The translations under genes and the position numbers were made by a program. A stretch of DNA of 64,000 bases, taken from contig CAJQUW010008995.1 in assembly GCA_907163375.1 (NCBI GenBank), positions 124,001 through 188,000 on the forward strand. The letters run 5' to 3'. The notes beneath the pieces were generated by a model, which had not been told where the DNA came from, made no database searches, and saw only the letters and a list, made by a program, of their open reading frames with translations. Shown here one piece after another: positions 6,828 through 39,432 of this stretch. This DNA comes from Prostheceraeus crozeri. Lineage: Eukaryota > Platyhelminthes > Polycladida > Euryleptidae. Position 1 is the stretch's first letter. Each line of letters starts with the position of its first letter.

Positions 6828-7134
6828 TTGTTGATGATGAGATAAAATTAATCAAATCCCTGTACCTACTACGAAAACGCGCGTACGTCGAGTCCTACCT
6901 GTTTCCTCTTCTTAGACACGATGTTAATCCACTTCTAAACAGACAGGATCAAAGAATTTCCAATGGGACGCACATTGCAGATTGTTGATGATGAGATAAA
7001 ATTAATCAAATCCCTGTACCTACTACGAAAACGCGCGTACGTCGAGTCCTACCTGTTTCCTCTTCTTAGACACGATGTTAATCCACTTCTAAACAGACAG
7101 GATCAAAGAATTTCCAATGGGACGCACATTGCAG
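6828..7134. repeat. 154-bp perfect tandem duplication
   Basis: 6828-6980 recurs from 6982 to 7134 with a period of 154 bp and no difference that I can see. Identity this high points to a recent duplication. Both copies span part of the foldback-element arm (GACAGGATCAAAGAATTTCC). Confidence 0.92.
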
Positions 7135-7674
7135 CTTTAAGCAAAAATGAAATTTTCTTTGTTTTCTCTTATCAACGAAAAGTACTAAGTCCAGAGCCCT
7201 AGTTTTCGGCATGGAATGTCTTCAGATCATTTCCTATCATGTGTAGAATGTGATATTATCATGTTTCTGATCATCGATGTATGCGAGAATGAGGTTCGAT
7301 GTGGATGAAGTGAGGCGACATGTCAGTGTTTGCCGACATTAGGAGGCTTGTCAAATCTGAATGTGTAAAGCTTCATAGATAAATGTTCCAGAATATGATA
7401 AGAAATTACCTGAAGACATTCCCATGTCGAAAATTATGGCTCTAGACTTAGTACTTTTCAGTTGATAAGAAAGAACATGGAAAATTTCATTTTTGCCAAA
7501 AACTGCGATCTGCGTCCCATTGGATTAACTTTTTCTTTGATCCTGTCTGACAAGAAGAGGAACTCACTAGAGCTCGACAGCCGTGCCCATTCGTAGTAAG
7601 CATCTGGTGCACATCATTCTGTGAAAGTCTCACTTTCGGTCTCGTTCCCTACAGAAACTCGCTTTGGCTGCCGG

Positions 7675-13332: not shown

Positions 13333-13985
13333 AGAAACCAATCTGCCAAATTACACATGTTGCGGTGACCTGCTCCATCAGGAGGATAATAAATGGCGAG
13401 ACAATTCGGACCGACAACAACTCGTACCATGCACTTTGAAATGACGTAAAACTCAGCTGACATAAAGCACGTACAAGACATATAAAGTGCACTCCTATTG
13501 CTATGTACAAATCTGTCTATATCGTAGCATTCCATGTATCCCTTACCATCTTCAGAACATGTGTCGTATATGTAGATGACTTATGGTTTCACAAGGGTAT
13601 CTCCTCTTATCAACCTATTGACTATGAAGCAGATAATCGCATTACTAATGAAACAAATATTTCGATCCATAAAGACATAAAAGCTTTTCCTGTAATTCGA
13701 GTGAATTTTTGATCATTTCAATACACTTACTCTATGCTTGTGACTTCGTCGCTTCTCTAGCTGCTTTAATTTAGGTTTGAGTTGTTTGAAATAGGCAGAC
13801 CCATACAACACTACAACTATATCTTCAAGGTTGTTTTTGATTATCAGCTGTATTGCTCTTACCGTTCCCTGGCTTTACATGGTATGTTAATTGTGTTGTT
13901 CGACCACATTGAAGACAGGTGCCATACGTGATGTGTTTCTTTCTACATTCTTGTGAAAATCATTTATGGAAATGCGTATTTGCAG

Positions 13986-22318: not shown

Positions 22319-22810
22319 TGACAGGCCTATTTCTGTTTGATCCTTTCGGAGTGGTACCCTGTTCTTCTATTCCAATATATTTAGCCTACATTTTTCATTT
22401 GCATTACAACTCATTCTTGCAGCATTCTCGTTTTTTCTAAATAAGAAAATATATAGGCCTACTACGGCCTACACTTATGGTTCTAGGCTATAGTCTGCAA
22501 TCATAGGCCTACAAATATCAGAAATATTAACATAAGGATCCTTTCAACATAAGGATAAATGAAATTTACATCGTTGTTTTAAGACTTACGAAACTATAGG
22601 AAACCAAATCTTCGTAAAAACCGGTATTTTCTCAAAAAGTCAAAATTGTATTATTTTATCAAAAAAAATCACAAAAATCAATATACTGACCACAAAAGCA
22701 TTTTTAAAAACGGAGGATTGTTGTTTTCGTGGTTTGTGTGACCCATGGAGTAAGGATAAAACATTTTTTTTCGGGGAACAAAATTTGTGTTGCATGGTGT
22801 AATAGATGTA
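22319..22810. other. 3' flank with TAGGCCTA words
   Basis: AT-rich, with several TAGGCCTA-like palindromes (for example 22456 and 22506). No gene. Confidence 0.35.
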
Positions 22811-24178
22811 CAAGGTGGCCATAAAGTCGCGCACCAAGCCATATTTGACATACACTCTAGCTAGAAACAATCACACTTTTATAGAATGACGATTTGTTCT
22901 CTTCATTTCATGAATGAACGTAATTCGATGTAGATGATAACGTACCGATGATGACATGAGTGTTACTCTGAAATCGAATAAATGGAAATAACAATGGCTT
23001 CTTAATCACAACTAGCGAGCATGTCTTTGGCAATTGAACACAGAATTGAAATGATCTTACTTTGTGGGCGAGAGGGTGCGACAAACAGGTCTGTTGCTGA
23101 AACGTTCAATTCAAAGCATGAAGGAATGAATGTTAGTCAATCTTCAGTCGGTCGGTTACTCTTGAAGTTCAAAGAGACAGGTAGTGTTCATGACAAAGAG
23201 CGAAGTGGACGTCCAAGAATATCTGATGAGACAAGAACAGCCATTCTTGATAAAGTTGAACAGAGTCCAAAGAAGTCCGTGCGCAGATCATCTCGTGAAA
23301 TCAACTTTCCCCGATCCACGATGCAGAAGATAGTCAAAGAAGAGCATTTCCATCCATACAAGCTTCAGATTCTCCAAATGTTACACGAAGACTATTCGGA
23401 CCGACGCGTGGAAATGTCGACATGGTTTGAAAACCAACTGGATGAAGATCCTGACATGGTTCATCAGAAAGTTCTCTTCAGCGATGAGGCTAACTTCTAC
23501 CTGAATGGTGAAGTGAACAAGCAAAACTGTCGCTACTATGCGCGGGAGAATCCACACTGGATGCAAGCCACAAGAGAACATAGTGGAGTGAAACTGATGG
23601 TCTGGTGCGGTCTGTGGAAGGACCATGTTTTAGGACCCTTCTTTTTTTGACTGAAAGCTTAACGGCAGCAGGTATCTCAAAATGCTGCAAGAAGAACTTC
23701 TGCCCCAGCTAGACTCAATTTGGAGAAGGTCGATCTGAGTGGTTCATGCAGGATGGAGCGCCTCCACACTATGCCTTGAAAGTGCGTGACTGACTGGATC
23801 GAAACTTCGAAAATTGGATTGGTCGAAGGGGGGACAGTTGAATAGACTCCACGCTCCCCTGACCTGAATCCCATGGATTTCTTCTTTTGGGGATACACAA
23901 AGCAACTAGTGTATTCCGAGCGCATGAATGACCTGGATCATTTGAGAACTCGAATTCGGGATGCCTGTGAGCAAATCAACGGTGATTCAAGTTTGCTCAA
24001 TCGAGTGTTTGATAACATTCACCATCGGCTTGATTCATGTCTGGCTGCTGAAGGGCACCATTTTGAACATTTGTAAATATAAATTTCTTTGTTCACAACT
24101 AATTGATGTTTTCCTTAAGTCATTTAGAGATCCATAAGAACAATTAAAATCTTGGTGCGCGACTTTATGGCCACCTTG
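22811..24178 (+). mobile_element. Mariner-type element, nearly full length but broken
   Basis: TIRs are exact over 27-28 bp: CAAGGTGGCCATAAAGTCGC at 22811 is matched in inverted orientation up to 24178. TA precedes the left end (22809-22810); the base pair after the right end is TT, perhaps a mutated TA. The 1368-bp length is normal for a complete element with one transposase gene. Confidence 0.92.
23021..24076 (+). pseudogene. Mariner-type transposase (DUF4817-like N-terminus), disrupted
   Basis: The first 209 codons are intact: MSLAIEHRIEMILLCGREGA starts a helix-turn-helix domain of the type found in an arthropod-rich mariner lineage, followed by GRLLLKFKETGSVHDKERSG and RPRISDET. The catalytic core begins at VLFSDEANFYLNGEVNKQNC (first D) and NPHWMQATREH...LMVWCGLWKDHVLGPFF. 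After a stop at about 23648 the second-aspartate region is degraded (DGAPPHYAL-like remains at 23755 with stops), and the frame resumes with SPDLNPMDFFFWGYTKQLVY and ends HHFEHL at 24076. Stops and frameshifts make it inactive. It lies between matching TIRs, so it is a single decayed copy. Confidence 0.92.
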
Positions 24179-26200: not shown

Positions 26201-26280
26201 AGACTGTCTCTGCGGCAACCACCGTCTGGCGTCAGATTACAGACTGTCTCTACGGCAACCACCGTCTGGCGTCAGATTCC
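26201..26280. repeat. 40-bp tandem duplication
   Basis: 26201-26240 and 26241-26280 differ at two positions (AGACTGTCTCTGCGGCAACC against ...TACGG...). It lies in the degraded end of the reverse-transcriptase fragment next to the minisatellite. Confidence 0.85.
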
Positions 26281-26545
26281 CTGTATCCATGGACTTGAAT
26301 TTGGTCTCTTCAGAGGACCTGCCTCGGATTCCTTGACGCAGTATTCGAGTCATCAATTTTGTGGCATTATTCGCTAGGCAAATAGGTTGATGATATTCCC
26401 ATTTTTTCGCACTAGGTTTCCTCGGCAACGGAATAAAAGTGGATTTCACCATGTCTTCCGGCATCTTACTTTCAACATGCATGTAGATTTGGTGCAACAA
26501 CAGAGTGTGCATCTTGACACCTTCCTCTCCAGCTGCTGACATCAT
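26237..26545 (-). pseudogene. Non-LTR reverse transcriptase, part downstream of the satellite
   Basis: On the minus strand the frame leaves the minisatellite as MMSAAGEEGVKMHTLLLHQI, then MPEDMVKSTFIPLPRKPSAK and ICLANNATKLMTRILRQGIR. This is the N-terminal reverse-transcriptase region of LINE pol proteins: the 'PDGI--EM---G-------L---' strand followed by 'W---IP-PK' and 'R-I-L-----K----I'. The missing residues just upstream (NRKAAG) lie on the other side of the satellite, at 34205-34466. Past 26290 the frame degenerates. The whole reads as one reverse-transcriptase gene split by expansion of the array. Confidence 0.8.
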
Positions 26546-29500
26546 TTCAGAGACTATGCCATCCCTCCTGCTGCTGACATCATTTCAGAGACTATGCCAT
26601 CCCTCCTGCTGCTGACATCATTTCAGAGACTATGCCATCCCTCCTGCTGCTGACATCATTTCAGAGACTATGCCATCCCTCCTGCTGCTGACATCATTTC
26701 AGAGACTATGCCATCCCTCCTGCTGCTGACATCATTTCAGAGACTATGCCATTCCTCCTGCTGCTGACATCATTTCAGAGACTATGCCATTCCTCCTGCT
26801 GCTGACATCATTTCAGAGACTATGCCATCCCTCCTGCTGCTGACATCATTTCAGAGACTATGCCATCCCTCCTGCTGCTGACATCATTTCAGAGACTATG
26901 CCATCCCTCCTGCTGCTGACATCATTTCAGAGACTATGCCATCCCTCCTGCTGCTGACATCATTTCAGAGACTATGCCATCCCTCCTGCTGCTGACATCA
27001 TTTCAGAGACTATGCCATCCCTCCTGCTGCTGACATCATTTCAGAGACTATGCCATCCCTCCTGCTGCTGACATCATTTCAGAGACTATGCCATCCCTCC
27101 TGCTGCTGACATCATTTCAGAGACTATGCCATCCCTCCTGCTGCTGACATCATTTCGGAGACTATGCCATTCCTCCTGCTGCTGACATCATTTCAGAGAC
27201 TATGCCATCCCTCCTGCTGCTGACATCATTTCAGAGACTATGCCATCACTCCTGCTGCTGACATCATTTCTGAGACTATGCCATTCCTCCTGCTGCTGAC
27301 ATCATTTCAGAGACTATGCCATCCCTCCTGCTGCTGACATCATTTCAGAGACTATGCCATCCCTCCTGCTGCTGACATCATTTCAGAGACTATGCCATCC
27401 CTCCTGCTGCTGACATCATTTCAGAGACTATGCCATTCCTCCTGCTGCTGACATCATTTCAGAGACTATGCCATTCCTCCTGCTGCTGACATCATTTCAG
27501 AGACTATGCCATTCCTCCTGCTGCTGACATCATTTCAGAGACTATGCCATTCCTCCTGCTGCTGACATCATTTCAGAGGACTATGCCATCCCTCCTGCTG
27601 CTGACATCATTTCAGAGACTATGCCATCCCTCCTGCTGCTGACATCATTTCAGAGACTATGCCATCCCTCTGCTGCTGACATCATTTCAGAGACTATGCC
27701 ATCCCTCCTGCTGCTGACATCATTTCAGAGACTATGCCATTCCTCCTGCTGCTGACATCATTTCAGAGACTATGCCATCCCTCCTGCTGCTGACATCATT
27801 TCAGAGACTATGCCATCCCTCCTGCTGCTGACATCATTTCAGAGACTATGCCATCCCTCCTGCTGCTGACATCATTTCAGAGACTATGCCATCCCTCCTG
27901 CTGCTGACATCATTTCAGAGACTATGCCATCCCTCCTGCTGCTGACATCATTTCAGAGACTATGCCATCCCTCCTGCTGCTGACATCATTTCAGAGACTA
28001 TGCCATCCCTCCTGCTGACATCATTTCAGAGACTATGCCATCCCTCCTGCTGCTGACATCATTTCAGAGACTATGCCATCCCTCCTGCTGCTGACATCAT
28101 TTCAGAGACTATGCCATCCCTCCTGCTGCTGACATCATTTCAGAGACTATGCCATCCCTCCTGCTGCTGACATCATTTCAGAGACTATGCCATCCTCCTG
28201 CTGCTGACATCATTTCAGAGACTATGCCATCCCTCCTGCTGCTGACATCATTTCAGAGACTATGCCATCCTCCTGCTGCTGACATCATTTCAGAGACTAT
28301 GCCATCCCTCCTGCTGCTGACATCATTTCAGAGACTATGCCATCCTCCTGCTGCTGACATCATTTCAGAGACTATGCCATCCCTCCTGCTGCTGACATCA
28401 TTTCAGAGACTATGCCATCCCTCCTGCTGCTGACATCATTTCAGAGACTATGCCATCCCTCCAGCTGCTGACATCATTTCAGAGACTATGCCATCCCTCC
28501 AGCTGCTGACATCATTTCAGAGAGTATGCCATCCCTCCTGCTGACATCATTTCAGAGACTATGCCATCCCTCCTGCTGCTGACATCATTTCAGAGACTAT
28601 GCCATCCGTCCTGCTGCTGACATCATTTCAGAGACTATGCCATCCCTCCTGCTGCTGACATCATTTCAGAGACTATGCCATCCCTCCTGCTGCTGACATC
28701 ATTTCAGAGACTATGCCATTCCTCCTGCTGCTGACATCATTTCAGAGACTATGCCATCCCCCAGCTGCTGACATCATTTCAGAGACTATGCCATCCCTCC
28801 TGCTGCTGACATCATTTCAGAGACTATGCCATCCCTCCTGCTGCTGACATCATTTCAGAGACTATGCCATCCCTCCAGCTGCTGACATCATTTCAGAGAC
28901 TATGCCATCCCTCCTGCTGCTGACATCATTTCAGAGACTATGCCATCCCTCCTGCTGCTGACATCATTTCAGAGACTATGCCATCCCTCCTGCTGCTGAC
29001 ATCATTTCAGAGACTATGCCATCCCTCCAGCTGCTGACATCATTTCAGAGACTATGCCATCCCTCCAGCTGCTGACATCATTTCAGAGACTATGCCATCC
29101 CTCCTGCTGCTGACATCATTTCAGAGACTATGCCATCCCTCCTGCTGCTGACATCATTTCAGAGACTATGCCATCCCTCCTGCTGCTGACATCATTTCAG
29201 AGACTATGCCATACCTCCTGCTGCTGACATCATTTCAGAGACTATGCCATCCCTCCTGCTGCTGACATCATTTCAGAGACTATGCCATCCTCAGCTGCTG
29301 ACATCATTTCAGAGACTATGCCAACCCTCCTGCTGCTGACATCATTTCAGAGACTATGACATCCCTCCTGCTGACATCATTTCAGAGACTATGCCATCCC
29401 TCCAGCTGCTGACATCATTTCAGAGACTATGCCATCCCTCCAGCTGCTGACATCATTTCAGAGACTATGCCATCCCTCCAGCTGCTGACATCATTTCAGA

Positions 29501-32500
29501 GACTATGCCATCCCTCCTGCTGCTGACATCATTTCAGAGACTATGCCATCCCTCCAGCTGCTGACATCATTTCAGAGACTATGCCATCCCTCCTGCTGCT
29601 GACATCATTTCAGAGACTATGCCATCCCTCCTGCTGCTGACATCATTTCAGAGACTATGCCATCCCTCCTGCTGCTGACATCATTTCAGAGACTATGCCA
29701 TCCCTCCTGCTGCTGACATCATTTCAGAGACTATGCCATCCCTCCTGCTGCTGACATCATTTCAGAGACTATGCCATCCCTCCTGCTGCTGACATCATTT
29801 CAGAGACTATGCCATCCCTCCTGCTGCTGACATCATTTCAGAGACTATGCCATCCCTCCAGCTGCTGACATCATTTCAGAGACTATGCCATCCCTCCAGC
29901 TGCTGACATCATTTCAGAGACTATGCCATCCCTCCTGCTGACATCATTTCAGAGACTATGCCATCCCTCCTGCTGCTGACATCATTTCAGAGACTATGCC
30001 ATCCCTCCTGCTGCTGACATCATTTCAGAGACTATGCCATCCCTCCTGCTGCTGACATCATTTCAGAGACTATGCCATCCCTCCAGCTGCTGACATCATT
30101 TCAGAGACTATGCCATCCCTCCTGCTGACATCATTTCAGAGACTATGCCATCCCTCCTGCTGCTGACATCATTTCAGAGACTATGCCATCCCTCCTGCTG
30201 CTGACATCATTTCAGAGACTATGCCATTCCTCCTGCTGCTGACATCATTTCAGAGACTATGCCATCCCCCCAGCTGCTGACATCATTTCAGAGACTATGC
30301 CATCCCTCCTGCTGCTGACATCATTTCAGAGACTATGCCATCCCTCCTGCTGCTGACATCATTTCAGAGACTATGCCATCCCTCCTGCTGCTGACATCAT
30401 TTCAGAGACTATGCCATCCTCCTGCTGCTGACATCATTTCAGAGACTATGCCATCCCTCTGCTGCTGACATCATTTCAGAGACTATGCCATCCCTCCTGC
30501 TGCTGACATCATTTCAGAGACTATGCCATCCGTCCTGCTGCTGACATCATTTCAGAGACTATGCCATCCCTCCTGCTGCTGACATCATTTCAGAGACTAT
30601 GCCATCCCTCCAGCTGCTGACATCATTTCAGAGACTATGCCATCCCTCCAGCTGCTGACATCATTTCAGAGACTATGCCATCCCTCCTGCTGACATCATT
30701 TCAGAGACTATGCCATCCCTCCTGCTGCTGACATCATTTCAGAGACTATGCCATCCCTCCTGCTGCTGACATCATTTCAGAGACTATGCCATCCCTCCTG
30801 CTGCTGACATCATTTCAGAGACTATGCCATCCCTCCTGCTGCTGACATCATTTCAGAGACTATGCTATTCCTCCTGCTGCTGACATCATTTCAGAGACTA
30901 TGCCATCCCTCCTGCTGCTGACATCATTTCAGAGACTATGCCATCCCTCCAGCTGCTGACATCATTTCAGAGACTATGCCATCCCTCCTGCTGCTGACAT
31001 CATTTCAGAGACTATGCCATCCCTCCTGCTGCTGACATCATTTCAGAGACTATGCCATCCGTCCTGCTGCTGACATCATTTCAGAGACTATGCCATCCCT
31101 CCAGCTGCTGACATCATTTCAGAGACTATGCCATCCCTCCAGCTGCTGACATCATTTCAGAGACTATGCCATCCCTCCTGCTGCTGACATCATTTCAGAG
31201 ACTATGCCATCCCTCCTGCTGCTGACATCATTTCAGAGACTATGCCATCCCTCCTGCTGCTGACATCATTTCAGAGACTATGCCATCCCTCCTGCTGCTG
31301 ACATCATTTCAGAGACTATGCCATCCCTCCTGCTGCTGACATCATTTCAGAGACTATGCCATCCCTCCTGCTGCTGACATCATTTCAGAGACTATGCCAT
31401 CCCTCCTGCTGCTGACATCATTTCAGAGACTATGCCATCCCTCCTGCTGCTGACATCATTTCAGAGACTATGCCATCCCTCCTGCTGCTGACATCATTTC
31501 AGAGACTATGCCATCCCTCCAGCTGCTGACATCATTTCAGAGACTATGCCATCCCTCCAGCTGCTGACATCATTTCAGAGACTATGCCATCCCTCCTGAT
31601 GACATCATTTCAGAGACTATGCCATCCCTCCTGCTGCTGACATCATTTCAGAGACTATGCCATCCCTCCTGCTGCTGACATCATTTCAGAGACTATGCCA
31701 TCCCTCCTGCTGCTGACATCATTTCAGAGACTATGCCATCCCTCCAGCTGCTGACATCATTTCAGAGACTATGCCATCCCTCCTGCTGAGTTCATTTCAG
31801 AGACTATGCCATCCTCCTGCTGATGACATCATTTCAGAGACTATGCCATCCCTCCTGCTGCTGACATCATTTCAGAGACTATGCCATCCCTCCTGATGAC
31901 ATCATTTCAGAGACTATGCCATCCCTCCTGCTGCTGACATCATTTCAGAGACTATGCCATCCCTCCTGCTGCTGACATCATTTCAGAGACTATGCCATCC
32001 CTCCTGCTGCTGACATCATTTCAGAGGACTATGCCATCCCTCCTGCTGCTGACAACATTTCAGAGACTATGCCATCCCTCCTGCTGCTGACATCATTTCA
32101 GAGACTATGCCATCCCTCCTGCTGCTGACATCATTTCAGAGACTATGCCATCCCTCTGCTGCTGACATCATTTCAGAGACTATGCCATCCGTCCTGCTGC
32201 TGACATCATTTCAGAGACTATGCCATCCCTCCTGCTGCTGACATCATTTCAGAGACTATGCCATCCCTCCTGCTGCTGACATCATTTCAGAGACTATGCC
32301 ATCCCTCAGCTGCTGACTCATTTCAGAGACTATGCCATCCCTCCTGCTGCTGACATCATTTCAGAGACTATGCCATCCCTCCTGCTGCTGACATCATTTC
32401 AGAGACTATGCCATCCCTCCTGCTGCTGACATCATTTCAGAGACTATGCCATCCCTCCTGCTGCTGACATCATTTCAGAGACTATGCCATCCCTCCTGCT

Positions 32501-34205
32501 GCTGACATCATTTCAGAGACTATGCTATTCCTCCTGCTGCTGACATCATTTCAGAGACTATGCCATCCCTCCTGCTGCTGACATCATTTCAGAGACTATG
32601 CCATCCCTCCAGCTGCTGACATCATTTCAGAGACTATGCCATCCCTCCTGCTGCTGACATCATTTCAGAGACTATGCCATCCCTCCTGCTGCTGACATCA
32701 TTTCAGAGACTATGCCATCCGTCCTGCTGCTGACATCATTTCAGAGACTATGCCATCCTCCAGCTGCTGACATCATTTCAGAGACTATGCCATCCCTCCA
32801 GCTGCTGACATCATTTCAGAGACTATGCCATCCATCCTGCTGCTGACATCATTTCAGAGGGGACTATGCCATCCCTCCTGCTGACATCATTTCAGAGACT
32901 ATGCCATCCCTCCTGCTGCTGACATCATTTCAGAGACTATGCCATCCCTCTGCTGCTGACATCATTTCAGAGACTATGCCATCCCTCCTGTGCTGACATC
33001 ATTACCGAGACTATGCCATCCCTCCTGCTGCTGACATCATTTCAGAGACTATGCCATCCCTCCTGCTGCTGACATCATTTCAGAGACTATGCCATCCCTC
33101 CAGCTGCTGACATCATTTCAGAGACTATGCCATCCCTCCTGCTGCTGACATCATTTCAGAGACTATGCCATCCCTCCAGCTGCTGACATCATTTCAGAGA
33201 CTATGCCATCCCTCCTGCTGCTGACATCATTTCAGAGACTATGCCATCTCTCCTGCTGCTGACATCATTTCAGAGACTATGCCATCCCTCCAGCTGCTGA
33301 CATCATTTCAGAGACTATGCCATCCTCCTGCTGCTGACATCATTTCAGAGACTATGCCATCCCTCCTGCTGCTGACATCATTTCAGAGACTATGCCATCC
33401 CTCCAGCTGCTGACATCATTTCAGAGACTATGCCATCCCTCCTGCTGCTGACATCATTTCAGAGACTATGCCATCCCTCCAGCTGCTGACATCATTTCAG
33501 AGACTAGGCCATCCCTCCAGCTGCTGACATCATTTCAGAGACTATGCCATCCCTCCTGCTGCTGACATCATTTCAGAGACTATGCCATCCCTCCTGCTGC
33601 TGACATCATTTCAGAGACTATGCCATCCGTCCTGCTGCTGACATCATTTCAGAGACTATGCCATCCCTCCAGCTGCTGACATCATTTCAGAGACTATGCC
33701 ATCCCTCCTGCTGCTGACATCATTTCAGAGACTATGCCATCCCTCCTGCTGCTGACATCATTTCAGAGACTATGCCATCCCTCCTGCTGACATCATTTCA
33801 GAGACTATGCCATCCCTCCTGCTGCTGACATCATTTCAGAGACTATGCCATCCCTCCTGCTGCTGACATCATTTCAGAGACTATGCCATCCCTCCTGCTG
33901 CTGACATCATTTCAGAGACTATGCCATCCCTCCTGCTGCTGACATCATTTCAGAGACTATGCCATCCCTCCTGCTGCTGACATCATTTCAGAGACTATGC
34001 CATCCCCCCAGCTGCTGACATCATTTCAGAGACTATGTCATCCCTCCTGCTGCTGACATCATTTCAGAGACTATGCCATCCCTCCTGCTGCTGACATCAT
34101 TTCAGAGACTATGCCATCCCTCCTGCTGCTGACATCATTTCAGAGACTATGCTATTCCTCCTGCTGCTGACATCATTTCAGAGACTATGCCATCCCTCCT
34201 GCTGC
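26531..34205. repeat. 38-bp minisatellite array, about 200 units (7.7 kb)
   Basis: The period is 38 bp (for example TATGCC at 26821 and 26859). The unit runs from CTGCTGCTGACATCATTTCA through GAGACTATGCCATCCCTC. Variants include CCAGCTGCTG for CCTGCTGCTG, loss of one GCT (35 bp), a lost C (37 bp), ATTCC for ATCCC and CGTCC for CCTCC. Segments are repeated at a larger scale: the series starting TATGCTATTC at 30861 recurs unit for unit at 32521, 1660 bp later. On the minus strand the unit begins GCAGCAGG and reads DGIVSEMMSAAG, identical to the flanking reverse-transcriptase frame. Confidence 0.98.
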
Positions 34206-34466
34206 CTTTCTGTTTGCGGATTTCTCCTGTGCAATCCTTGCTTCATCGCTTATAATATGCATTATGTTGTTGTCGTTGTTCTGCTCACTTCTTATGCTTG
34301 TCCTTCGATTATGTTCAAACAGACTTTCAATGTTATCTGTCCAACAATCAGGTTTCTTTCCACAAAAGCTTCTCTGGATTGGCTGTCTACGCATCCATTG
34401 ACAGCTCCAATCTTCCGAATACCGGCATCCATCCTGACACATGACTCGTAGGGTAAAATCGGGCAT
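34205..34466 (-). pseudogene. Non-LTR reverse transcriptase, part upstream of the satellite
   Basis: The minus-strand frame reads CQWMRRQPIQRSFCGKKPDC, then WTDNIESLFEHNRRTSIRSE and DEARIAQEKSANRKAAG. In LINE pol proteins the stretch before the first reverse-transcriptase motif has the order '--RW-E-F--L-N-' ... '--EV--AI--LKN-KAAGPDGI'. Here KSANRKAAG is followed at once by satellite units whose minus strand supplies DGIVSEMMSAAG. So this fragment and 26237-26545 are the two flanks of a single gene. It has no stop within the matched part, but the satellite contains stops because 38 is not a multiple of three. Confidence 0.75.
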
Positions 34467-35811
34467 TATCGACAGTCTCTCACTGCTTTCTTAGCTTTGA
34501 TATGAGATATGATATCCAAATAATCTCTTCTTGATTGAATTTATCAGTTCATCGATTTATTTTGTGATTCTAGGTGACAAGAAAGGTGTGTAAATTGCAA
34601 CAATGTTCGCATAATATCGACAGTCCCAAAAAGAAGCGTCAAAATCAACTAGGTATAGTAAACTAGTGATGTCATACATTGTATGAAGCCCAAGTTTATA
34701 TAATCTTATCTGCTGCCTCTTTGGTTGTCTGAAAAGGCGAAATTTCACATCCGGAAACAGTCAAGACAGACGAATCCATCATCGTCAAAGACGAAGAAGA
34801 ATTCTGTACATTTTCATGCATGCAACGCAACCGAAAGCGATGCAATTCGCCTTTTCAGACTATGAAAGAGACAACGGATGTGCAAAGTTTCGTTCCGTAT
34901 AACATGCAACATTTTTAGTTTGTTATATTTGGCATTTTCTGACACTTCCTTCGGGGACTTTCGATGTCGCCGTGCAATGTGTTGATATTATGCGAATATC
35001 ATTATAGGCCGCACATCCTACTCTTCACCTAGAATCGCATGTTGAACCGATTAATTAATAGATTCGAGTAAGAAGGGATTATTTGGATGTCATAATTCAT
35101 ATAAATACTGAGAGAAACAACTGTGAGAGCACTAAAACTGTTTATTTACTGTCGATGTTACCCGACATCTTCCACGCATGGTCTAGATAGATAAAGGGAT
35201 GCATTCAAATCTTGTGAAGGTGATATTGTAATAGACAGCAAACAATAATGACAGAAGAATGGCTATTTAGTCAGTATCTTGTTGAACAATGCTGATTGGT
35301 ACCTTTCGACAGTGGTGTCGATATTACCCGACATTTATGCATCGACTACATACGACAATATAACGTAAACAATTTGACGAAGTCATTGCTATTCCGTGAA
35401 ACTACACCCCTATGCTATGGAATAACCAATTACTTAGCTGTCAGAAGGCGCGTGAAGGAGCTGACTGAGTTGCCCTGATCGGGGCAATATATTGTAGAAT
35501 TCGGCGACTCACTTCACTGTGCGATATCTGTCAGGATGAGGCAATCAGAAGCGTTCAACCAATCTTCTGTTACACATTTGAGAGTTGACTACTTATTGAT
35601 ACACATGGATGATCTTCTGAAATTCTGAAATATCATTTTGGAAAAGTGGCTTAACTGTCGATATTACCCGACTTTATCCTTGATTATAATGTTTTTTTGC
35701 ATCGAGAGTTAAAGTTGTTTTCCTTTGCGGTATTATTTCCGGATGTCGTTGTCTAACTTATCAGGCTGTGCATTCTCGTGTTGTGTTGAACCTTAGTCTG
35801 ACTTCCATTCT

Positions 35812-36085
35812 TTAGTCATCCATTCTGCTTCGCAGTTTTTTCTGTTCTTCGGCAGCTTGTGAAATCAGACTCAGTGATGTCCATTTCAAACAGCTCTCTC
35901 TGCATTTATCTCGATGTTGTTCGCTGTTCTGTATGCACGAATCAATCCATTCTTCCCCATTTTCGTTGCGCACATGAAGGCTGTGGAGTCCTAGCATGTT
36001 ATATTCTGTCACATTCATGCTTCTTTATCCTACTTTCACATTGAGATCACGCATCACCACTTCTCCGCCTCTGCGGTAGACAATG
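35812..36085 (-). pseudogene. Non-LTR endonuclease fragment
   Basis: On the minus strand the sequence reads GEVVMRDLNVKVG, then after a stop MNVTEYNMLGLHSLHVRNEN and GEEWIDSC. This corresponds to the APE-type endonuclease motif 'V--GD-NAK-G ... G--G---RN-NG---I-FC' of LINE pol proteins; the catalytic D of GDxN is present but the preceding G is R. The rest (QNSEQHRDKCRESCLKW...) does not match the usual 'TW-SPDG---NQIDH' segment, so an internal deletion joined it to later sequence. It is a dead piece inside the spacer of the large inverted repeat. Confidence 0.6.
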
Positions 36086-37661
36086 TACAGTGTTAAGGTT
36101 CGAATAGAATTTCTCCAAATCTTCGGCTTCGCTAGCACTAAACTCGAATATCAATGCAGAAAATGTGTTATTTGGGTGCACTTTCATATTTCGGATATTT
36201 TAAAAAAACATCAATTTATTCATGTCATCGAAGAGACTATCGAATCTTATGAAGGTGAAGTCTATTTAGGAACTCAATTGGTCGTGTCGCAACAGGATCA
36301 GCCCTATTGGTTTTAGCCAATTCTAGCTGCGATTTCATTTGAATGAGACTTGCACTTTTACATATTAGAGAGGATAACGCAAATGTAGTCATGCGTATAC
36401 TCAGTTATCGATTTTAATTGGAAATTTGCTATGTCACGCGACATTTGAAGTGACTTGGAAACATGAAGGAAAAGCCTACGCGGACGCAGCGCCTGTTAAC
36501 AGCCATCTATATTTGTACTCCGATAATATCCTCAATTGCCCACACTTTCCCTAAGTTTTGTGAAAATCGCTTAAGTTAAACGGTCATCAGATAGACTTTG
36601 AGTTTTGAAAAGCAGTTATCCTAATGAGCTTCCAACAGCGTATTTCATTAGCAATACAGTATGCTCATTATTGGCATGATGGGTTATCACATGGATGGCA
36701 ATTTTTCGTTTCTTCCAATTTTCTGAATGTTTTTATGGGTCTCGTGATACGTCCAAAATGCAATAATATCATAGGGGGGGTAGGGAATGTATTTCTGCCA
36801 CAATTCCTTTTTAAGGCAAAGTGATGTGTAATAGGCTCTAGATTGAAAAAGGGTTTCTATTCTGTATCTTAAACAAGCATTTGAAATGTTATGAAAACGA
36901 CTGCAAATTCACAGTCGGCGTTTAAACACAATCCACGGTTGTCTCAATTACAGATCACGCATTTGGGCGCGATATCACATGATATTATAAAATAAGAGCC
37001 GTTTTATCATCTGTCGAATCCACTTCAAGTGACATTTCTGTCACATTTCTGTTTATGAAAACTATTGTATCTGAGTTCAAAACGGAAATATGTTTGCTTT
37101 CACGCATTCCACCTGCCATCTGATATCTAAATCATTGCATTATATTTTTCAGCTTCCCAGCATAAACTAAACCCTTGTAAAGTGGATAGAATATCTCCTT
37201 AGAATGGTCGAATGGTTCGTTTGGATGGAGAACATTGATGCAGCTTCCTTCAAAGGCGGTGACTGCAGAATCTCTCGGTTATGGTGGAGCTTAGTGAATT
37301 TTTCGTGCCGTGAACTCCATGACCTTGTGAAAAAGAATGAACTGAATTTTGTATGCATTTACCTTGTATTTGTATTTTTGAATATGCAAATATATGAACC
37401 AGCAACTAGTTTTATTTGGTTCTGTGTAATAAATCAATCCAATATGATGCTACACTTCGGGCTCAACCGAAATTGCTTCTTTATTTTCTTCACTGCAATC
37501 ATTTCAACATTGCGGTCTTGCACAATGCTGTTTTGCAATAAACTTACTCGATCAAATTGTATGCTTAGATTTGGAACAGCATTCATCATGGAGCTGGGCC
37601 TACTCCGTGTATGTAAGTGGTGGGAGAGGCTTGTTTAATTAACTTCTTACATTAAGTTCTC
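36086..37661. other. Spacer of the inverted repeat, no gene recognised
   Basis: Open frames at 36083-36316 and 37204-37638 (144 codons, hydrophobic C-terminal half) lack motifs and splice support. A run of seven G at about 36774. Confidence 0.35.
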
Positions 37662-37848
37662 ACTCCGTGGCACAGTGGTTAAGTGCTTGGCCTAGCGATC
37701 TTCTGCCCAGAAATCGAGCCCCGAAATTGTCATTGGGAGTCGTTAGGAAGGGCATCCGAACTAAAAGATCACAGAGCTCCAGATTAAACTCAATGTCATC
37801 ACCGTCCACGCCCCAAGTAAGGGGAGCAAGTGACGTCAAACCATCATT
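37662..37848 (+). mobile_element. tRNA-derived SINE, copy 1
   Basis: It begins ACTCCGTGGCACAGTGGTTAAGTG, with a pol III A box, and has ATCGAGCCCCGAAA as a B box. A body follows with GGAAGGGCATCCG and ACGCCCCAAGTA and ends in an ATCA-type tail. The same sequence appears in reverse at 53485-53684, so this is an active-type dispersed SINE family. It lies inside the spacer of the large inverted repeat. Confidence 0.85.
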
Positions 37849-38299
37849 TTTGACAAAATCTTGTAAGCACGAGCACCTATAACAAACTGATACCTTGATG
37901 TAATTTAAATATAATTATCTCGGCATTTATAGGAATGACGGCGACTGCTTAGAGTTATATTTAGATGCATACAGCCGAAATAATTATTCAATGAAGTCAA
38001 CGTCGAAAAGCAAGCAAATAAGAGGTCCGCCTCCTTAGATGCCCCTCTGGAACAGAAGCAAAATGAAATTGAGGCTAAAAGAAATGAAAAGCAGTCAACT
38101 CAGATAGTGCTTGCGAAACTCCATGAAAGGTTCCAGAAGGGAGAGAATGAGTTCAAGAGAATTGAGCGATAAAAAGAAAAATGAAACTTGCCGAAAATAT
38201 GACGGAATCTGTTTTGAAATGGCAAGCGGAGAAAGTTTCCTTTTGCACGACCGCAGAATTGAAGACAAAGAATTTCATGGTTAAATACTACCCCCCCCC
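37849..38299. other. Spacer, coiled-coil-like remnant
   Basis: About 38030-38170 can be read as APLEQKQNEIEAKRNEKQST followed by VLAKLHERFQKGENEFKRIE, a charged heptad-like stretch in one frame before a stop. It may be a decayed ORF. An 11-C run lies at 38291. Confidence 0.3.
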
Positions 38300-39432
38300 C
38301 ACCATAGGGTAAAGTTGGATAACATATCGAGAGTTAAGTCACTTTTCCAAAATGATATTTCAGAATTTCAGAAGATCATCCATGTGTGCAGTAAATTGTA
38401 TCAATAGGTAGTCAACTCTCAAATGTGTAACAGAAGATTGGTTGAACGCTTCTGATTGCCTCATCCGGACAGATATCGCACAGTGAAGTGAGTCGCCGAA
38501 TTCTACAATATATTGACCCGATCAGGGCAACTCAGTCAGCTCCTTCACGCGCCTTCTGACAGCTAAGTAATTGGTTATTCCATAGCATAGGGGTGTAGTT
38601 TCACGGAATAGCAATGACTTCGTCAAATTGTTTACGTTATATTGTCGTATGGAGTCGATGCATAAATGTCGGGTAATACCAACGCCACTGTCGATAGGTA
38701 CCAATCAGCATTTGTTCAACAAAGATACTGACTAAATAGCCATTATTTTGTCATTATTGTTTGCTGTCTATTACAATATCACCTTCACATGATTTGAATG
38801 CATCCCTTTATCTATCTAGACCATGCGTGGAAGATGTCGGGTAACATCGACAGTAAAAAACAGTTTTAGTGCTCTCACGGTTGTTTCTCTCAGTATTTAT
38901 ATGAATTATGACATCCAAATAATCCCTTCTTACTCGAATCTATTAATTAATCGGTTCAACATGCGATTCTAGGTGAAGAGTAGGATGTGCGGCCTATAAT
39001 GATATTCGCATAATATCAACACATTGCACGGCGACATCGAAAGTCTCCGAAGGAAGTGTCAGAAAAATGCCAAATATAACAAACTAAAAATGTTGCATGT
39101 TATACGGAACGAAACTTTGCACATCCGTTGTCTCTTTCATAGTCTGAAAAGGCGAATTTCATCGCTTTCGGTTGCGTTGCATGCATGAAAATGTACAGAA
39201 TTCTTCTTCGTCTTTGACGATGATGGATTCGTGTGTCTTGACTGTTTTCGGCTGTGAAATTTCGCCTTTTCAGACAACCAAAGAGGCAGCAGATCTATAA
39301 ACTTGGGCTTCATACAATGTATGACATCACTAGTTTACTATACCTGGTTGATTTTGACGTTTCTTTTTGGGACTGTCGATATTATGCGATTTTGTTAAAA
39401 TTTACATGCCTCTGTTTTCACATAGAATCATA

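Follow-up and report, generated by a model that had tools for sequence, protein, structure and literature searches.

The 64,000-nucleotide stretch of the Prostheceraeus crozeri assembly considered here (C7472:124001-188000, hereafter the window, in a genome of 2.05 Gb and 14,165 contigs) contains a single large tandem array. Tandem Repeats Finder (TRF) describes it as a minisatellite with a period of 38 bp and 203.3 copies (96% matches, score 14403), confirming the repeat reported in an initial annotation of the same DNA (Table 1). The span given there, 26237-34466, does contain the array, but it also takes in flanking coding remnants and some of a 40-bp duplication that is distinct from the array. 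On the minus strand these remnants belong to a reverse transcriptase (RT): the right flank terminates ...SANRKAAG, the left flank opens ...SEMMSAAGEEGVKM / AAGEEGVKMHTLL..., and the 38-bp unit translates as DGIVSEMMSAAG. As the initial annotation had proposed, the unit thus supplies the RT residues absent between the flanks; relatives with a single copy align with it in register. We assign a probability of roughly 0.9 to the reading that this is a locus-specific minisatellite grown from part of the decayed RT coding sequence of a non-long terminal repeat (non-LTR) element, that is, a long interspersed nuclear element (LINE).

Table 1. Array, flanking RT fragments and adjacent features, in window coordinates
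Feature	Position	Strand	Basis
38-bp minisatellite array, 203.3 copies	26527..34205	-	TRF; unit parsing; translations
Candidate seed, 5' half, GCAGCAGGA	34197..34205	-	Sequence; identical 9-mer in array-free C761a, C761b and C3908
Candidate seed, 3' half, GCAGCTGGA, incomplete terminal unit	26528..26536	-	Sequence; same 9 bases in array-free C12905
RT fragment 3' (downstream) of array, starts AAGEEGVKM...	26307..26536	-	Alignments; open frame 26237-26584
RT fragment 5' (upstream) of array, ends ...EKSANRKAAG	34197..34438	-	Alignments; open frame 34185-34490
40-bp tandem duplication (2.0 copies), distinct from the array, just left of RT fragment	26201..26278	.	TRF
Neighbouring ~4.8-kb element with ~1-kb inverted ends	34607..39389	.	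Arms within 34607-35664 and 38324-39389, 97-99% complementary

The array is confined to this locus and one homologue. Searching the genome for two adjacent units (at most 3 mismatches in 49 bases) returned 190 matches, versus 0 for a backward-read control, and chance is therefore no issue for the array. Counting in the fetched sequences accounted for all 190, the window contributing 173 and a second contig, C2055, the other 17; positions 8435-9128 of C2055 hold 18.3 copies of the window's unit between RT flanks like those of the window. The initial annotation had suggested that the same array elsewhere, free of RT flanks, would argue against a local origin; none was found genome-wide at this stringency, which a more diverged array would escape. 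A 29-base piece of the unit likewise had no exact counterpart in collections of virus, bacterial and archaeal contigs. A classical satellite forms many long arrays across the genome, whereas this repeat occupies two homologous loci only; its period of 38 bp and 203.3 copies place it among tandem repeats with units of 10-100 bp.

The segment from which the array is proposed to have grown occurs singly in other copies of the RT. A genome protein search with the joined flanks was evaluated through the best 150 of 1395 candidates scored. Thirty of these were taken as loci, 4 in the window and C2055 and 26 elsewhere; the 26 loci were fetched out of 146 listed matches outside the two array loci. One unit is present at the array position in all 26 (among the matches listed), some with a one-residue gap and none with an array-sized insertion. 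C3908 and C3416 also carry a single unit there, and C12341 spans the downstream side only. The prediction that uninterrupted copies would hold one unit is thus borne out, and in 26/26 fetched related RT loci the unit has its homologue in a segment that this dispersed transposable element (TE) carries once. TRF detected no 38-bp array in 33 related RT loci. More broadly, protein hits elsewhere numbered 535; 120 of these were listed, and a regular expression for a K-A-x-G-P-D-type motif matched 100 of the 120. As a side observation, a 62-bp tandem array of 4.2 copies lies near another RT copy, in C10760 (L051:431-694).

Anchor parsing divided the window array into 201 units of 32 distinct types, the commonest of which accounts for 115 identical copies. 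Most units are 38 bp long (174), the remainder being 37 bp (13), 35 bp (10), 39 bp (2), 36 bp (1) and a 74-bp double (1), and the mean distance from the commonest type is 0.66 edits per unit (200 units). Because 38 is indivisible by three, the frame shifts at every repeat, and the other frames contain stops; the array, being out of frame, does not code, and no function for it is indicated. Two units as single-stranded DNA form secondary structure no stabler than that of shuffled sequences (z 2.63 and -0.36). A 10-unit block with rare variants recurs 43 units away, a lag at which we counted 11 matches against a shuffled mean of 3.7, a value reached in 0 of 500 shuffles; 60 lags were tested and four fell below 0.02. 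This repeated block suggests that the array later grew by block exchange. The left quarter is more uniform than the rest (0.40 versus 0.72-0.76 edits per unit), and growth there may be more recent.

C2055 matches window positions 18646-38855 in colinear blocks of 91-97% identity with different insertions in each, and the RT flanks are 98% identical over 440 columns. The unit types are far less alike. The window has 32 and C2055 has 2, with the commonest type the only one in common, and a GAAATGGTG variant occurs in 8 of 17 C2055 units and in none of the window array. Sharing only one unit type, the arrays have largely changed separately; most simply, their common ancestor would have carried a small array, with separate expansion or turnover following in both loci. 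C2055 may be the other haplotype, with 18 and 203 units as alleles, or it may be a segmental duplicate, and we regard the two as evenly balanced. The colinear blocks, interrupted by insertions and deletions, and the near-identical RT flanks are what alleles would show, but a divergence of about 5% is high for alleles, the shared block at 22800-24000 is a multi-copy transposon, and C2055 is unmatched in the window from 22142 to its end and has no block of at least 300 bp between 13774 and 21678. Two features of C2055 stand apart from this question: it apparently holds one copy of the 40-bp segment duplicated in the window, and a C2055-specific stretch at 6891-7265 (L011:2391-2765) contains three copies (99%) of a 124-bp unit.

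A plausible course of events can be outlined from these comparisons. The starting point would be a copy of the element in which a single segment of ~39 bp (KAAG-PDGIVSEMMS-AAG) carried GCAGCAGGA at one end and the similar 9-base motif GCAGCTGGA at the other. The segment could have been duplicated by slippage from one motif to the other, or by an unequal exchange involving the two, and the longer homology so created could then have driven expansion through unequal exchange, conversion or further slippage. Shared flanks with but one common unit type imply that expansion or turnover would have continued after the window and C2055 copies separated. At the array ends the two motifs match at 8 of 9 bases, and the array terminates in an incomplete unit equal to the 3' motif. 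That motif is GCAGCTGGA, not the GCAGCAGG given in the initial annotation. With the flank motifs counted, there are 151 instances of GCAGCAGG and 34 of GCAGCTGG, both inside the array, as expected if the exchange point was variable or a later exchange moved the mark.

Several observations weigh against this origin, or against parts of it. The proposed direct repeat stands at the array locus, and each half recurs in some array-free relative, but none of the 11 array-free relatives has both halves at 8/9; five (C3908 and four of the C13754 group) reach the best score of 7/9, and the other six score 3 to 6. Pairs of this quality also arise by chance, with 5 observed in the 520-bp single-unit sequence against a simulated mean of 2.7, and at least 5 in 29 of 200 simulations. 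We therefore consider the GCAGCAGGA/GCAGCTGGA seed plausible but weak. At both loci the unit bordering the 5' flank is already of the 38-bp kind, which hides the first duplication from direct view, and none of the RT copies examined has two units. In addition, C3908, which is the nearest relative with one unit (80% over 333 columns), is damaged inside that unit, and the length of the array rests on the assembly.

The loss of one base from an original 39 bp, also proposed initially, is upheld by the closest relatives. Six of the seven nearest by DNA have 39 bp in the corresponding stretch, and the seventh, C3908, has 29. One base is gone from the array unit because GG replaces a three-base codon of the relatives (CCA, TCA, CTA, CCT or CAA). 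The 38-bp form could reflect a relic that had shifted before duplication, or a short form spread by homogenisation. We place slightly less than even odds on the first, in which the fragment was frameshifted at this position before the first duplication and the loss is older than the array. At both loci the short form already appears in the unit that abuts the 5' flank, and C3908, besides losing 9 bp within the unit, is 1 bp shorter exactly at the point of shortening in the array unit (GGACCGAT against GGACCAGAT). However, C3908 groups with the two array loci weakly (bootstrap 66, unrooted tree), the bases at the shortened place differ (CC in C3908, GG in the arrays), and a change that arose later could have spread through homogenisation.

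An assembly artefact, either a collapse in C2055 or a false expansion in the window, seems an unlikely source of the array's length or of the difference between 203 and 18 units. Tandem arrays are hard to assemble, and C2055 is short (36,165 bases), with a 7- to 8-kb local repeat making up its right part. Yet the window array comprises 32 unit types whose order is partly non-random, and the private variant of C2055, in 8 of 17 units and absent from the window array, indicates that C2055 is no mere collapsed copy. The least probable alternative, in which a 38-bp satellite that already existed was inserted into the RT fragment or captured by it, would suit the length and homogeneity of the array, but we reject it, since the unit encodes exactly the RT segment missing between the flanks and all 190 two-unit matches fall in the two RT-flanked arrays, with no free-standing array found within 3 mismatches.

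The flanking RT is itself in poor condition. Its homology to relatives stops near 26307 and near 34438, leaving ~500 bp once the array is removed, and 7 bp upstream of the array are missing in both array loci but present in C3908, C12905 and C3416; a longer stretch upstream of the array position is missing in C1601. The window RT is therefore a truncated, dead relic with no intact open reading frame (ORF), and this damage may have come before or after the birth of the array. The initial annotation spoke of a clear, intact before-and-after context, but the RT copy was degenerate, and calling it unusual was an overstatement. A Pfam scan of the two short window flanks returned no family at E<=0.001. 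A longer relative in C7822 encodes both an endonuclease (PF14529) and an RVT_1 (PF00078) domain, which fits a non-LTR source. Judging by its motifs, we suspect that the source LINE may belong to the RTE clade. The inverted-end element on the right starts ~170 bp past the end of the RT fragment, and the colinear match to C2055 breaks off inside this element at base 13774, ahead of the 7- to 8-kb local repeat. Elsewhere in the window, 6828-7134 holds two identical copies (100% matches) of a 154-bp unit.

A second minisatellite in this genome arose from the end of a DNA transposon, a copy of which occupies window positions 22800-24000 or beyond. We tentatively take this element to be Tc1/mariner-like, from weak helix-turn-helix matches under Pfam's cut-off. 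Among the best 40 of 381 candidates scored, the window's own copy is accompanied by 39 others at 94-97% identity. A 29-bp unit at the transposon end is present once in the window (near 22820-22850), C5041 and C99, and twice in C5328 (L070) and C4601 (L071), which differ in flanking sequence. In C13748:1089521-1092223 (L069:1022-3724) it reaches 89 copies by fuzzy count, with a main TRF row of 85.7 copies and 83% matches. The transposon-end case supplies the two-unit intermediate that is lacking for the RT array. Together with the single-unit relatives and the two arrays of the RT, its series of one, two and many units makes models of first duplication and later expansion testable on sequence. 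A broader proposal, which we consider doubtful, is that pieces of transposons become private minisatellites again and again in this genome, and that the 203- and 18-unit versions are alleles in rapid turnover; if true, it would provide readable before, during and after states of minisatellite birth.

We found no publication on the window array in the open-access literature, but the kind of event is already known, as the initial annotation had recognized, and our knowledge of it is unchanged by this case. The array is a good, unusually readable example. Satellite origins are mostly inferred after the ancestral state has been lost. This one genome, by contrast, still contains the source segment together with single-unit relatives and both a short and a long array. 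Births of satellites from TEs have been reviewed (PMC12628747), and those related to LINE ORFs include chicken HinfI/CR1 and, with L1 ORF2, PROsat and Pvc20 (PMC9659126). The latter three resemble the present case in their relation to LINE coding sequence. They are, however, classed in that account as satellite DNAs, whereas our array is limited to one locus and its homologue. In Lathyrus sativus, satellites are described as deriving from arrays within LTR retrotransposons (PMC7004042). There too a tandem array expanded inside a retroelement, but short in-element arrays came first; here an array is found in 0 of 28 related RT copies at the position.

The slippage models of Haber and Louis and of Taylor and Breden, as presented in PMC6947457 and PMC3389668, place short direct repeats on either side of the future unit and leave the terminal unit incomplete. 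The incomplete terminal unit and flanking motifs described above would be the signs these models ask for. Our case departs from them in that the seed is mismatched at 1 of 9 bases at the array locus and at 2 or more in array-free relatives, and in that the unit is one base shorter than that of its relatives. The two-unit intermediate of Haber and Louis was not found among the RT copies examined, and all 190 two-unit matches lie in the two long arrays. In the human genome, 7,276 tandem repeats are reported to derive from TEs, or 23% of minisatellites and satellites; 300 lie between direct repeats of 5-20 bp, and known birth models are said to account for just 6% (PMC3389668). As portrayed there, these repeats share with ours short units grown from TEs and expansion by local duplication. 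What distinguishes the present array from that set is a source in LINE RT coding sequence, the presence of single-unit relatives, and a homologous locus at which the array has another length.

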